From the NCBI RefSeq assembly GCF_042242105.1, contig NC_092031.1, positions 16,956,162 through 17,020,161 on the forward strand: 64,000 bases of DNA. Reading direction: 5' to 3'. Below are positions 20,255 through 60,166 of the stretch, piece after piece. The DNA is from Pempheris klunzingeri. Taxonomy: Eukaryota; Chordata; Actinopteri; Acropomatiformes; Pempheridae. The translations under genes were made by a program, and so were the position numbers. Below the pieces are notes generated by a model. It did no database searches, was not told where the DNA came from, and saw only the letters and a list, made by a program, of their open reading frames with translations. Each line of letters opens with the position of its first letter. The first letter of the stretch is position 1.

Positions 20255-22717
20255 TTATATGCTGGTTTGCAGCTCACCATTGAGCAGGGCAGCATTGTGA
20301 GTCTCCAAGTTGGCATTGATGATTGCAGCATCGTTGACCATCCTGCTCCTGTCTGCCCTGCTGTCACTGCGCTCCATCTCGTCCAGGCCTGCCACCTTTT
20401 TCAGGCACAGAACGTTCTGAAAGCTCTTCTTGAAGTTGTCCGACAGGAAGGCGTACAGGATGGGGTTGGCGCAGCTGTTGGCGTAGCCGAGCACCACGAC
20501 AAAGTCGAAGGTGCTCTTCACGGCGGAGGTGGGGTTGATGGAGCTGGTGACGGAGGTGACGTTGAAAATGTAGAAAGGCAGCCAACAGAGGACGAACACT
20601 GCCACCACGATGGACACCATCCGTGTCACCTTACGCTCAGAGCGCTTGCGCTTGGTGGAGCCCACTCGCATGCCGGACGACTTCACCTGGTAAAGGAATG
20701 AACTGTCAATGGCTTAAAACTCCCAGGTATAAAAGCTCTGTTCACTCTGTGAGACAGAGAAATGTCTTTAAGTTGTTTGACATTTTGGGACATACACTTA
20801 ATTGCTTTTTTAGCATAATGACTGAAAGAGCCTACGCAAGGTTTTACATAAGGTTATGTACTGGACCTTATAAGTTTATAGTCAAGACAATTTAGTACCA
20901 TCTGCTATATTTTCACCATTATTCACGTAACAAATTGAATGAATGACTGTGAAATTACAATGTTCAATTTCCCTAGCTGGCCTGACAAGCCCTCCAGGGC
21001 TAACTAGCTCCAGGGCTAACAGCCATGGCGTCCTATTGTAGGCTAAAATATGTTAATGTGATGTTACATAATGTAACATTCAGTATATTATATTAAGTTA
21101 AAATAACTTGAAATGTGAAAACAGGCACTCATGGCTTCTTTAATGACACAACTCACTGTGCTGTGGGAAAAAATAGCAAACGCTGTTGTTGATCCACACA
21201 TATGTTATATGTCACATTAAATTGAATCAAATATGCATGACTCAAGTGGCCAAAGTACTTTCTGTGCCAGATGGATGTTCAACCCACTAGTTCTGTAGCC
21301 AGCAATAAAATCATCTCATGATTGAATTTAGAGGAAAACGTAGATGAGAAAAGTGCATGTCATACATGGGGAGCCAAGCTCTCACCTTGACTATGATGAG
21401 CAGGTAGCACAGGCATATGACAGCCAGTGGCAGGAAGAAGCCAATGAAGAAGGTGTAGATTATGAAGGCCGTGTAATAGACGTCCTGAGGCTCTGGCCAC
21501 ACGATCCCACAGACAGGCACCTTGTTCAGGCCACTGAAGATCATAGTAGGTAGGATGACTAACAGTGACACACCCCATACTGTCAGGTTAATTAGCTTGG
21601 CTATGCGGGGCTTCCGCCATTTTGTAGACTTAATAGGGTGGACCACAGCCAGGTATCGATCGATGCTCATCACCATCAGACAGAAGATGCTGGTGAACTG
21701 ATTGAGAGAGTCTGGGGGGGGGGGCGTGAAGGAGTGGAAAAAGAAAGGTGAGGTGGGGATTTGTATCAAGTATGTCGTATTAATAATTGCTAATGCTCTT
21801 TTTATTAAAACAAGGTGTATATAATACTTTATATAATACAGTGTGATAAAGGATGTTGGTAACACAGCTGGGATGACCAACACAGTGCAGCTAAAGTATT
21901 TATCATCTACGTTAAAGCAATAATTAAACATTGTGGGAAATACACTTTTTCCTGAGAGTTAGATGAAAAAAACAGTACCACTCTTACATCTGTTACAAAT
22001 GAAGGACCTATAAATCTCACTAACTAACAAGTTATACTGGATCTTGTTAGTTAAATCCATTCAAAAACAACAGGTTGTCCAGGAAGTCACTTGGCCTATA
22101 GTGGAATCAATCTTCTGATCTAATTTTCAGCAAAAAAGCGAGTAAGTGTATTTCCCAAAATGTCAAACTATAAACAAATATCTTAGTGTTTAACAGTCTT
22201 AAATAGTAGGGATGTTCTCTTCAAATTGCAACCACAGTGAACAATGTTTTCAGGATAATTTCCCTCCCGAGGAACCGGAAAGTGAACTGCTGCTGCTGCT
22301 GAAGCATTAGCCTTCACCTGAACACCTACCTACAGTCATGATCACCCGGCACAGCACCTCCCCAAAGGGCCAGTGCACCAGAGCCAGCTGCAGGGCGATG
22401 AACGGCAGGCTCATCATGCACAGGACATCTGCCACCGCCAGGTTCAGGATGTAGATGTTGGTCACCGTCTTCATTTTGGCGTAGCGCAGGATGACATATA
22501 TGACCAAGGTGTTGCCGCACAGCCCCACGCCGCATACCATGAAGTAGATGAAGGTGATGACCACCGAACTGGTCTTGTCCTGGTGGGGCTCACTGGTCTC
22601 GGAGATGTTCAGATCCAGGTCGGACTCATTCCCCTGGATGTAGCTATCGTACAGGAGGGGCTCGGGGATGGAGATGTTAGGGGGAGTCGAGAGAAAGGGC
22701 CACTGATCCAAGGCCAT
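20255..22717 (-). CDS. sstr2: Somatostatin receptor type 2
   Basis: This is a Gi-coupled class A GPCR for somatostatin. Three coding exons, 22717-22330, 21711-21386 and 20686-20255, join in phase 1 and phase 0 to give 381 residues (human SSTR2 has 369). The N-terminus has N-glycosylation sequons at Asn14, Asn30 and Asn37. Ligand residues are Asp130 (3.32) and Gln134 (3.36) in [24 protein letters not shown] follows TM3, CWLPFYIFN marks TM6, and the family signature [18 protein letters not shown] is in TM7. The C-terminus [10 protein letters not shown] is nearly identical to human and keeps the PDZ-binding end (SSTR2 tails bind Shank-type PDZ proteins). Human SSTR2 has an uninterrupted coding frame. 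Here the first intron splits the codon of Asp3.32 and the second falls at the start of intracellular loop 3. Neighbourhood with slc39a11 agrees with human chromosome 17. Both introns contain mobile-element remnants. Confidence 0.95.
20772..20812 (+). repeat. MITE end fragment in sstr2 intron 2
   Basis: The text 'tttgacattttgggacatac' followed by 'acttaattgctttttt' matches the terminal part of the repeat at 21925-22171. Only one end was recognised here. Confidence 0.55.
21714..21724. repeat. G11 homopolymer forming the sstr2 intron 1 acceptor tract
   Basis: On the coding strand this is eleven C directly followed by the AG of the acceptor, so the polypyrimidine tract next to exon 2 is a C homopolymer rather than the usual U-rich tract. 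Confidence 0.85.
21925..22171. mobile_element. MITE-like repeat in sstr2 intron 1
   Basis: The left end reads 'acattgtgggaaatacact' and the right end 'gtgtatttcccaaaatgtca', which are inverted copies of each other (GACATTTTGGGAAATACAC type). The element is about 250 bases long and has no coding capacity. Related ends occur at 20772 and 58846. From experience with fish genomes this looks like a very common teleost non-autonomous DNA element; the superfamily is not determined here. Confidence 0.65.
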
Positions 22718-48081: not shown

Positions 48082-49128
48082 CTACATCTCCCCTTTTACC
48101 AGAATGGTTATATCCCGTACACCTGTGTCATTTAAGTCATACCGTTCGGTGTTGCACTGCATGCTGGGGGATGACTTGGCGGCAGGGCAGAGGAGGGTGC
48201 GGAAGTGCCTCCTGAAGGTGTCTGAGAGACAGGCGTAGAGGATGGGGTTAGCGCAGCTCCACGAGTACGACAGCAGGACCGCAAACTCAAAAGCTCTGGC
48301 GAAGGTCAGGACCAGGCCATTTTGATACAAGGAGCAGAAGTTGAAGGTATAAAATGGCAGCCAGCAGATCCCGAACACTACCACCACCGCGACCACCATT
48401 TTGGTGACCTGGCGCTCCAGCCGGTGGCTCTCGTGGTTCGGGGTCCTGGCTCGGAGCCGCTGGGACCTCAGGTTGAGCAGCAGTGCCGCGTAGGAGGCCA
48501 TCATGACCGTGAATGGCAAAGCGAACCCCATGACGAAGGTGTAAGACAAGACGCCGAGCCACCAGGCATCCGAAACCAGGTCTGGTATACACAGGCCTCG
48601 ATCAGCTGAGAAGTGAAGTGCCATGGGAAGGATGGTGAGGAGGGAGAAGAGCCACAGGAAGGCCGAAATGATCTTGGCGCGGCGTGGCGTTCTCCAGTGG
48701 GTGAACCGAAGCGGGTCGGCCAGCGCCATGTAGCGGTCGAGACTCATTGCTGTCAGACAGAAGACACTGGTGAACTGGTTGATGCCGTCCAGCACCATGA
48801 CCACTTTGCACGCCATGTCGCCAAACATCCAATGATTCTGAAAGTTCTGGCTTGCTATGAAGGGAAGACCAACCATGAAGAGTCCGTCGGCCAGCGCCAG
48901 GTTGAAAATGTACACTGTGGTGGATGATGACATTTTGTCCAATTTTAAAATGGCAACAATGACAAGGGCATTCCCAGCTAGTCCCATGATGCAAACCACC
49001 AAGTTAAGGATAGCCATGGTGATGCCGAAGCCATCAATACTGTCCTCAAAGTAAAAATTCTCATCCACATAGGTCTGACTGTAGTTTGTATCTGGTAAAA
49101 ATGAGGCATCCATTTTGCCCCAGTGCAT
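48082..49128 (-). CDS. Divergent somatostatin-receptor-like GPCR (intronless)
   Basis: A single open frame encodes 348 residues from the ATG at 49128, or 343 from the ATG at 49113, which has the better context (A at -3, G at +4). Numbering is from 49128. All seven helices are present: Asn53 (1.50), Asp81 (2.50), DRY 131-133, Trp159 (4.50), Pro205 (5.50), CWLP 255-258 and NPILY from 294. The extracellular disulfide pair is Cys107-Cys180. Family membership rests on DGINQFTSVFCLTAMS in TM3, ICWLPFYTFN in TM6 and [15 protein letters not shown] in TM7. Ligand positions Asp114 (3.32), Gln118 (3.36), Asn263 (6.55), Phe280 (7.35) and Tyr288 (7.43) are kept. Oddities are Trp290 at 7.45 (normally Asn), DRYMALADP instead of DRYLAVVHP, loss of the WP pair in loop 2, and a tail ending VKGEM with no PDZ motif. 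It has one sequon (Asn15) and a palmitoylation-type Cys314. It is closest in feel to the SSTR2/3/5 group; whether it is a named paralogue such as sstr5 or a separate receptor needs a tree. Confidence 0.85.
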   Translation of the reverse strand: MHWGKMDASFLPDTNYSQTYVDENFYFEDSIDGFGITMAILNLVVCIMGLAGNALVIVAILKLDKMSSSTTVYIFNLALADGLFMVGLPFIASQNFQNHWMFGDMACKVVMVLDGINQFTSVFCLTAMSLDRYMALADPLRFTHWRTPRRAKIISAFLWLFSLLTILPMALHFSADRGLCIPDLVSDAWWLGVLSYTFVMGFALPFTVMMASYAALLLNLRSQRLRARTPNHESHRLERQVTKMVVAVVVVFGICWLPFYTFNFCSLYQNGLVLTFARAFEFAVLLSYSWSCANPILYACLSDTFRRHFRTLLCPAAKSSPSMQCNTERYDLNDTGVRDITILVKGEM

Positions 49129-58678: not shown

Positions 58679-60142
58679 ATGCTGGAAGGCTACAGCCCTA
58701 TGACCCAGGCCCTGCTGGGGACTCTGTTCACCTGGGGTCTGACTGCTGCCGGAGCAGCCCTGGTGTTTGTCTTCTCCAGCCGACAGGTATTGTGTGAACC
58801 CAGTGCAGACAGACGGAGCTTGAGTAAACACTTTACACATTGTTTTAAAGGAATAGTTGGCATTTTGGCAAATATGCTTAGCCGCCGGTTCAAGAAAGCA
58901 AATAAGGCTTTTTCCCCAAGTGTCACGCGATTTCATTAAATGTGGATGTTCATGTTCTACAATGTCTACACTGCCCTCAAAGTGAAAGCAGCGCCTTAGC
59001 AGAGCAGCAGCAGCGTCACTGCTCCGCCTATGTCTGGACAGGATGCATTCAGGGTCACCCGCATTCTGGCAGCGCTCACAGCCCGACACAGAATCACTGT
59101 AGTCAGTCATGTGCATAAAACTTAAAGCTTTTTTGGATCTCTGAGACGTGCGTGAGACTGATGATGCAAAAATGCGACTGAAATGCCTCCTGTGTAGACA
59201 AGCTGTTACAAAAAAATTAATAAATGGCATAATTTGCGGGGAATAATGTGTGATAATGCTGAGATTTTTTTTTCTTTTTACGACTAAAACTTGGAATAAT
59301 GGATATTTAAATGTAAAATGATGGAGAATCAACACAAAGGAAGTGTATTTGAATTCAAATACGATTGTTTAATAGTATCTTCTCTCCTCTGTGAGCTACA
59401 GATCAGGCCTCTAATTAGGAAACATAGACTGAGACAAAGCTTTTTCAGATCTGTAGGGTTGCAGTTCTACCTACTATGTTTTATCCCACAGTGTTCTAAG
59501 TGTACACGTTTCACGGACTGAAATAATAAAGGTGCTGATGTGCTGACGGTGGCACGTCTGATGCAGCAACTTTAGTTCCTACAAACTTAGCTACACTTTT
59601 GTTTTAATCTATTATTTTTTTCTGCCTTTACTGATGATGCACATTATCTATGGCAGCAATACAGTCGTAGGCAGTGGAATATGAAGCGTGTGGTTTGGAT
59701 TAAGAGCAGCGGAGCTTGAAATCACTGCCAACGAGACGGAAAGTAAACAAAGCGCAGCTCCATTAATTGCATTCATTTGAATAAATACATTTTTTTTACA
59801 GCACCAATCTAAACACAAAATTAGTCGGATTTATCGGTGATGAAATAATCAGTACATGTGAACCACATGTTATCTACATCATTACAACATGTTTTTAAAG
59901 TATTCGTGGAGCTGAGGATTTCCACTATAACTGCGAGAGAGTGTGTTATGTTACATCACGTCAAACCCGTCTACAGAGTGGTTTTGCCTGTAGATGCCCG
60001 TTTCGTTATCTTTGAACCTCTGACTCTCAGGACATGTTGTGTTATTCCGAGTTAAGTCAACAGTAAGAGGTTTACAATCTCTATTCCTGTCTGTCCTTTA
60101 CAGAAGCGCATCTTGGATGGAAGTTTAGGCTTTGCAGCTGGG
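58679..60142 (+). CDS. slc39a11: Zinc transporter ZIP11, 5' part (exons continue beyond window)
   Basis: ZIP11 is a ZIP-family metal transporter that moves zinc into the cytoplasm, reported on Golgi and nuclear membranes. Two coding exons are visible. The first runs 58679-58786 (exon starts at 58669 after TTTTCCAG, donor GTATTG, 36 codons, MLEGYSPMTQALLGTLFTWG...). The second runs 60104-60142 (13 codons, KRILDGSLGFAAG, donor GTGAGT). Phases are 0 and 0. The sequence follows the human N-terminus closely: ALLGTxFTWGxTAAGAALVFVFSS, then RILDGSLGFAAG, so the first membrane helix is complete. In human the next residues are VMLAASYWSLL; no exon encoding these was found before 64000, consistent with this gene's very long introns. 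Gene order next to sstr2 matches human chromosome 17. Confidence 0.92.
58846..58890 (+). repeat. MITE end fragment in slc39a11 intron
   Basis: The text 'ggaatagttggcattttggc' followed by 'aaatatgctta' matches the terminus of the element in sstr2 intron 1 (GACATTTTGGGAAATACAC type). It starts 60 bases past the donor of the first coding exon. The right end was not recognised. Confidence 0.5.
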
Positions 60143-60166
60143 GTGAGTTCAGTTTCATTTGCACTG

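Follow-up and report, generated by a model that had tools for sequence, protein, structure and literature searches.

Our analysis indicates that a single-exon frame lying beside sstr2 in the window (the whole stretch of 64,000 nucleotides analysed here) most likely encodes an old, working and retuned somatostatin receptor, and that on its sequence it can be filed, provisionally, as an old, intact and divergent SSTR of a known kind. We refer to the gene as sstr2-like, a name already in print for a gene of this sort (PMC11224465), as is a similarly placed coelacanth gene, SSTRX (PMC3560075); as far as the available parts of those papers go, its novelty as an extra SSTR is less than the earlier note had claimed. 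The account that we regard as probable, though far from assured, is that sstr2-like belongs to the SSTR2/3/5 group, still works and evolves fast, being a local duplicate of an sstr2-type gene that would be older than the split between this fish's two sstr2 genes. The frame and its landmarks are as follows.

48082..49113, minus strand: coding frame of the sstr2-like receptor, 343 aa, single exon, stop included (frame reading, Pfam, PDB, genome protein search)
49114..49128, minus strand: in-frame upstream ATG, the start chosen in the earlier note, with five extra codons and a weaker context (sequence reading)
48730..48738, minus strand: DRY motif at residues 126-128, with MALADP next; a D replaces H146, which all 12 SSTRs in the comparison share (alignment)
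48235..48249, minus strand: NPxxY motif, residues 289-293 (sequence)

The earlier description of an intact, intronless 7TM frame resembling a somatostatin receptor is borne out, and so is its end at 48082, but the other boundary, 49128, corresponds to the upstream ATG (T at -3, C at +4), while the start with the better context is the ATG at 49113 (A at -3, G at +4). Pfam 7tm_1 covers residues 47-293 at 3e-60, and in the PDB the best match is SSTR2 at 264 bits, followed by SSTR5 (241), SSTR3 (239), SSTR1/4 (about 221) and the kappa opioid receptor (187). The receptor has the attributes of class A, namely 7tm_1, DRY, CWxP (as CWLP), NPxxY and the TM3-ECL2 cysteines, and it has seven hydrophobic segments, the same number as SSTR2; the AlphaFold model, whose mean pLDDT of 48.4 is too low for it to serve as evidence, has helices that fit seven TM segments plus helix 8 loosely. 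GC at the three codon positions is 0.50/0.40/0.71, and the two 3-kb flanks have GC of 0.41 and 0.44. A protein search of the 646-Mb genome gave at least 127 matches, with 118 of 601 candidates scored, and among the matches listed there was no second copy, the next best being 41% identical. In viral and prokaryote contigs, one scan for relatives of the receptor gave no match and another gave 22 pattern matches, none of them a relative.

Is so divergent a frame held by constraint, or is it falling apart? Starting from this genome's intronless sstr2, we let substitutions accumulate without constraint to 54% or 37% identity, in 2000 runs each, and no frame stayed intact at either level (0/2000 and 0/2000, with on average 6.6 and 9.2 stops). 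Together with the Pfam match this rules out a chance open frame. Since drift leaves no intact frame while the receptor is 42-45% identical to SSTR2 proteins (42% to the adjacent sstr2), its sequence has most likely been constrained for most of its history, and the high third-position GC likewise speaks for constraint. A decaying or dead gene, as PMC11224465 in its available portion offered for tilapia, is a reading that we find quite improbable here. It would account for a branch of 1.2-1.8 where the remaining SSTR tips have about 0.12-0.40, for the alteration of 15 or 16 of 78 SSTR-invariant columns, and for the six TM segments stated for the tilapia receptor. It sits badly, however, with a full 343-residue frame that keeps DRY, CWLP, NPxxY and seven hydrophobic segments, with the outcome of the drift simulations, and with a tilapia gut sstr2-like transcript that is reduced at 30 g/L salinity (PMC12428277, available in part and matched by gene name alone). 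At least in this fish, the intact seven-segment frame argues against the six-TM, pseudogenizing interpretation.

The gene had been described as lying on the same strand as sstr2, 26 kb upstream of it, and between it and slc39a11. This placement stands, with a measured gap of 25.4 kb and with the first coding exon of slc39a11, named from human sequence, beginning 9.6 kb beyond sstr2-like; such a location and orientation are in keeping with a tandem copy.

22331..22717, minus strand: sstr2 exon 1, TM1 to the start of TM3 (genome comparison)
21383..21712, minus strand: sstr2 exon 2, TM3-TM5 (genome comparison)
20255..20686, minus strand: sstr2 exon 3, ICL3 to the C-terminus, stop included (genome comparison)
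58679..58786, plus strand: slc39a11 first coding exon (78% identity to the human SLC39A11 query)
60101..60145, plus strand: slc39a11 second coding exon (93% over 15 residues of the human SLC39A11 query)

The query that named the locus at 58679 was what we take to be the human SLC39A11 protein. Pfam gave no recognition of the 36-aa first exon, and the locus is absent from the matches listed in a Zip-family scan of the genome, so that the name derives from the alignment with this query. The other presumed SSTRs of this genome are sstr2, sstr3 and sstr5 on C17, sstr3 and sstr5 on C3, and a gene of sstr6/sstr1 type on C23; names follow PDB matches for the C23 gene and for sstr3 and sstr5 on C17, and the tree for the others. 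The C23 gene has SSTR1 as its best PDB match and weak support in the tree, and its label sstr6, which we presume from fish usage, may have to be changed to sstr1.

We also observed that a phase-0 intron (AAG|GT), placed where TM5 ends, is common to the window's sstr2 (on C20; 21383/20686 in the window), sstr3 on C3, sstr5 on C17 and sstr5 on C3 (L015, L016, L017), while sstr2 and sstr3 on C17 have no interruption at this site; donors were read directly, and the acceptor of the C17 sstr5 is inferred from its translation. Either this is an ancestral intron of the 2/3/5 group that has been lost many times, or introns were inserted repeatedly at one proto-splice site. A further intron interrupts the window's sstr2 at 21713-22330, immediately before D3.32; the C17 sstr2 lacks it.

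Besides sstr2-like, the trees contain 12 SSTRs, drawn from this fish and from PDB chains taken as human (two species in all), and up to five outgroup rows. Eighteen genome regions were retrieved and 12 used; those of opioid type on C12 and C21 were omitted, as were the more distant receptors L022, L023, L024 and L026. AU tests comprised five runs, three rooted and two SSTR-only, under LG, JTT and Q.pfam models. In SSTR-only trees sstr2-like joins the SSTR2 branch in both runs; in rooted unconstrained trees all four best trees place it outside all SSTRs, with p-AU 0.55-0.71 in the three tested. Over the five runs p-AU is 0.42-0.80 for a sister of SSTR2, 0.22-0.37 for the base of 2/3/5 and 0.11-0.21 for SSTR3, and the confidence set of the rooted trees holds the SSTR2 sister, the base of 2/3/5 and the position outside all SSTRs. 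The three rooted tests without constraint reject a position within SSTR1/4/6 (p-AU 0.0015-0.008); the two SSTR-only tests do not (0.22), and with groups fixed the values are 0.020 without MCHR and 0.060 with it. The earlier note had itself named a tree position as plain sstr5 or sstr3 as what would speak against it: plain sstr5 is rejected in five runs (p-AU 0.007-0.015), but sstr3, at the values just given, is not.

The trees also bear on the age of the copy. A sister position to both fish sstr2 genes, which would mean an origin in the fish line, is not rejected (p-AU 0.087-0.275), while AU rejects, in five of five runs each, a union with the adjacent sstr2 alone (p 0.010-0.035, and 0.009-0.042 in a separate set of the tests) and with the C17 sstr2 alone (p 0.010-0.035); the weaker SH test rejects these single-gene unions in one run of five and gives p 0.07-0.08 in the other four. 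Since neither single fish sstr2 is accepted as partner, the copy should be older than the split of the two. That sstr2-like was copied recently from the adjacent sstr2, in tandem or by a retro route, is accordingly extremely improbable, even if the gene adjoins sstr2 on the same strand and is intronless where its neighbour has two introns: the AU rejections and the 42% identity stand against it, and SSTR genes usually have a single coding exon according to the available text of PMC3560075, as the C17 sstr2 does too. From these alignments we would derive sstr2-like from a duplication on the SSTR2 stem or below it, its deepest node being provisional.

What, then, of the position outside all SSTRs? 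It would make sstr2-like a member of the SSTR/opioid/NPBWR/MCH cluster that responds to some other peptide, left from an older tandem array beside sstr2, and we hold this to be unlikely but to be reckoned with. It is preferred by the unconstrained rooted trees, and once 2/3/5 and 1/4/6 are constrained to be groups, as published, it is still best when MCHR is kept (p-AU 0.80, against 0.42 for the SSTR2 sister). When MCHR, the most distant outgroup, is omitted, the SSTR2 sister becomes best (p-AU 0.84, against 0.26 for outside). Moreover, the SSTR2/3/5 grouping is broken in trees with sstr2-like and returns in trees without it (SH-aLRT/bootstrap 76.5/75 without MCHR, 60.5/44 with MCHR), where SSTR1/4/6 joins the outgroups; this restoration is a sign of long-branch pull. 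On the other hand, simulations under a homogeneous model recovered a true SSTR2 sister in 39 of 40 cases and placed it outside in none, recovered a true outside position in 38 of 40, and, for a true position at the base of 2/3/5, were right in 22 cases out of 40 but shifted it to SSTR2 in 17 and outside in one. Because the outside position arises so rarely in them, a long-branch artefact would need model misfit, and these simulations count against a simple long-branch excuse. The earlier proposal, an old tandem copy belonging to the SSTR2/3/5 group, survives as the best reading, with sstr5 and post-split copies rejected by AU, but against the best rooted trees.

Individual residues point towards the 2/3/5 group. 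Two stretches are of particular use.

48340..48342, minus strand: N258, corresponding to SSTR2 N276(6.55), typical of SSTR2/3/5 and Q in SSTR1/4/6 (alignment)
48259..48267, minus strand: Y283 (Y302, 7.43, kept) to W285 (N304, 7.45; Asn in 12 of 12 compared SSTRs) (alignment)

At the eight columns with a clean separation between SSTR2/3/5 and SSTR1/4/6, sstr2-like has the 2/3/5 state in five, the 1/4/6 state in none and neither in three; at looser 2/3/5 columns it has the 2/3/5 residue in 12 of 20, and of 25 columns where 1/4/6 is invariant with a residue that 2/3/5 lacks, it shares that residue in one. M119, Q126, M136, W153 and N276 are among the separating residues, and M119, W153, L270 and N276 are 2/3/5 states absent from the five outgroup rows, which, with the gap between the best opioid match in the PDB and SSTR2, weighs against a receptor from outside the SSTRs. 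Subtype-diagnostic matches are few (SSTR2 2/13, SSTR3 2/7, SSTR5 1/5). The 78 SSTR-invariant columns are kept in 62 cases, Cys193 being, among the 16 losses, an alignment gap with the Cys present; one opioid row keeps 56 of 72, NPBWR 58 of 78 and MCHR 49 of 78. The TM7 motif reads YSWSCANPI and so departs from YANSCANPI, which we take to be the motif of the somatostatin receptor family. Other receptors of this genome depart too (YANSGANPI in the sstr6-type gene, YVNSCANPL in the C17 sstr5), with the Asn kept in 12 of 12 compared SSTRs, and it is this departure with a lost Asn that makes the filing of sstr2-like as an SSTR provisional. In class A receptors, position 7.45 lies near the sodium site and the toggle switch.

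For the ligand pocket we compared the SST-14 contacts of SSTR2 that PMC9343605 names in its available part, 18 residues in all; the first stretch of interest is the anchor of the peptide lysine.

48775..48789, minus strand: D109 to Q113, corresponding to SSTR2 D122(3.32) and Q126(3.36) (alignment; roles from the available part of PMC9343605)

Ten of the 18 are kept (D122, Q126, F272, V298, Y302, T212, N276, Q102, F275, F294) and eight altered: F208 (V), Y205 (W), I284 (G), P286 (V), K291 (A) and, in ECL2, T194, I195 and W197, where T194 was judged by eye and, as loop lengths differ between the two receptors, the register of ECL2 and of ECL3 is uncertain. The earlier statement that the five main ligand contacts are kept is right as far as it goes, but these eight published positions have changed. 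The lysine anchor is complete, F208 alone differs among the tryptophan contacts, and the F7 subpocket is rebuilt. D3.32, which pairs with the peptide lysine, is present, and does not discriminate the SSTR family because the displayed outgroup rows carry D too. In SSTR2, the substitution Y205W, which sstr2-like bears naturally, reduces SST-14 potency, as the available text of PMC9343605 has it. ICL3 is identical to that of SSTR2 in three of 23 residues, with presumed TM boundaries. The pocket and core substitutions suggest a changed function, and we predict that ligand preference or basal activity is altered. A receptor that has no peptide of its own, and is instead constitutively active, a decoy or an SSTR2 partner, might be suggested by the exchange of N7.45 for W and by the changed ICL3; we consider it improbable, as the deep ligand anchors are kept and a ligand-free receptor would have no need of them.

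Candidate ligands are encoded in this genome, which contains at least three somatostatin-like frames with NFFWKTFTSC. One somatostatin-like frame, on contig C416 (L029), ends in ESCCKNFFWKTFTSC, with a doubled Cys ahead of the usual core. A [Tyr7,Gly10] form of somatostatin occurs in some teleosts. A genome pattern permitting that variant matched three canonical NFFWKTFT sites only, which gives no support for a variant ligand in this fish.

How could such a receptor have arisen and what might it do? We suggest that an sstr2-type gene was duplicated locally before this fish's two sstr2 genes split, presumably in the teleost genome duplication, and that the duplicate remained between sstr2 and slc39a11. 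It keeps the anchors of the Lys-Trp tip of somatostatin (D3.32, Q3.36, T5.42, F6.51, N6.55, V7.39 and Y7.43), would bind a somatostatin-family peptide through that tip and would couple to Gi/o as other SSTRs do. The rebuilt residue-7 subpocket (Y205 to W, F208 to V, an altered and short ECL2), together with Trp 7.45, may lower SST-14 potency, or alter peptide preference or basal activity. Speaking for this account of a local, pre-split duplicate are the PDB ranking, with SSTR2 first by 24 bits, the 2/3/5 residues, the SSTR-only trees, the groups-fixed tree without MCHR, the rejected post-split unions and the peptides encoded in the genome. Speaking against it are the outside position, best in four of four rooted unconstrained trees and in the groups-fixed set with MCHR; the SH test, which keeps local-copy trees in four of five runs; invariant columns kept at a rate like that of one opioid row and near that of NPBWR; the few SSTR2-diagnostic matches and the eight altered contacts; and PMC11224465, which in its available portion sees possible degeneration and omits the gene from four pituitary-expressed SSTRs.

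Counterparts of the gene have been described from two directions. According to the available parts of PMC11224465 (2024), sstr2-like occurs in gar and teleosts, from an inferred ray-finned duplication, has six TM segments, is perhaps becoming a pseudogene and is not named among the four SSTRs of the tilapia pituitary; PMC12428277 reports, under the same name and with gene identity assumed, the lowered intestinal transcript mentioned above, and an SSTR7 is named once, for topmouth culter, in a review table in the accessible text of PMC9576932. The published gene is, like ours, a single exon (339 aa in tilapia, 343 here); in gar it is the nearest gene to sstr2 and is listed with slc39a1, probably slc39a11, as in the neighbourhood here; and, again like ours, it stands at the root of the SSTR tree. 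It differs in its six segments, where we find seven. Its label in tilapia, paralogon A, compared by description, has no simple fit to this fish, where the three-receptor chromosome C17 (sstr2, sstr3, sstr5) is not C20, the chromosome bearing sstr2-like and its neighbouring sstr2. Coelacanth SSTRX, as described in the accessible portion of PMC3560075 (2012), lies some 20 kb from SSTR2 and is oriented like it, is SSTR2-like and basal in the SSTR2 cluster and has a faster branch; it was taken to be coelacanth-specific. The position beside sstr2, the shared strand of SSTRX and the single exon of tilapia all recur here, and on those papers' authority there is evidence against the absence from all related fish that the earlier note had held up against itself. 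No work linking sstr2-like with SSTRX was found in a literature search whose scope excluded most subscription journals, and its best matches held no further description of this gene.

The gar and teleost sstr2-like, this gene and SSTRX could be one ancestral seventh SSTR of bony vertebrates, and we entertain this tentatively, with somewhat more doubt than belief: it would have been born in tandem with SSTR2 before the ray-finned/lobe-finned split and lost in tetrapods but retained in fish, its rebuilt residue-7 pocket preferring a somatostatin variant, for instance [Tyr7,Gly10], over SST-14. PMC11224465 and PMC3560075, in the parts available, each assume an origin within their own lineage for what looks like the same gene; taken with the intact copy here, the two point to an overlooked subtype, which would concern a hormone system governing growth and reproduction of farmed fish. 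SSTR2 itself offers the closest comparison. It is the top PDB match and has in common with sstr2-like the lysine and most tryptophan contacts, F275 and F294, whereas at 42-45% identity the two differ in the F7 subpocket, ECL2, ECL3, ICL3 and position 7.45, and the adjacent sstr2 has introns where sstr2-like has none. Given the effect of Y205W (PMC9343605, in its available text), the changed F7 subpocket would amount to a natural experiment in ligand selectivity.
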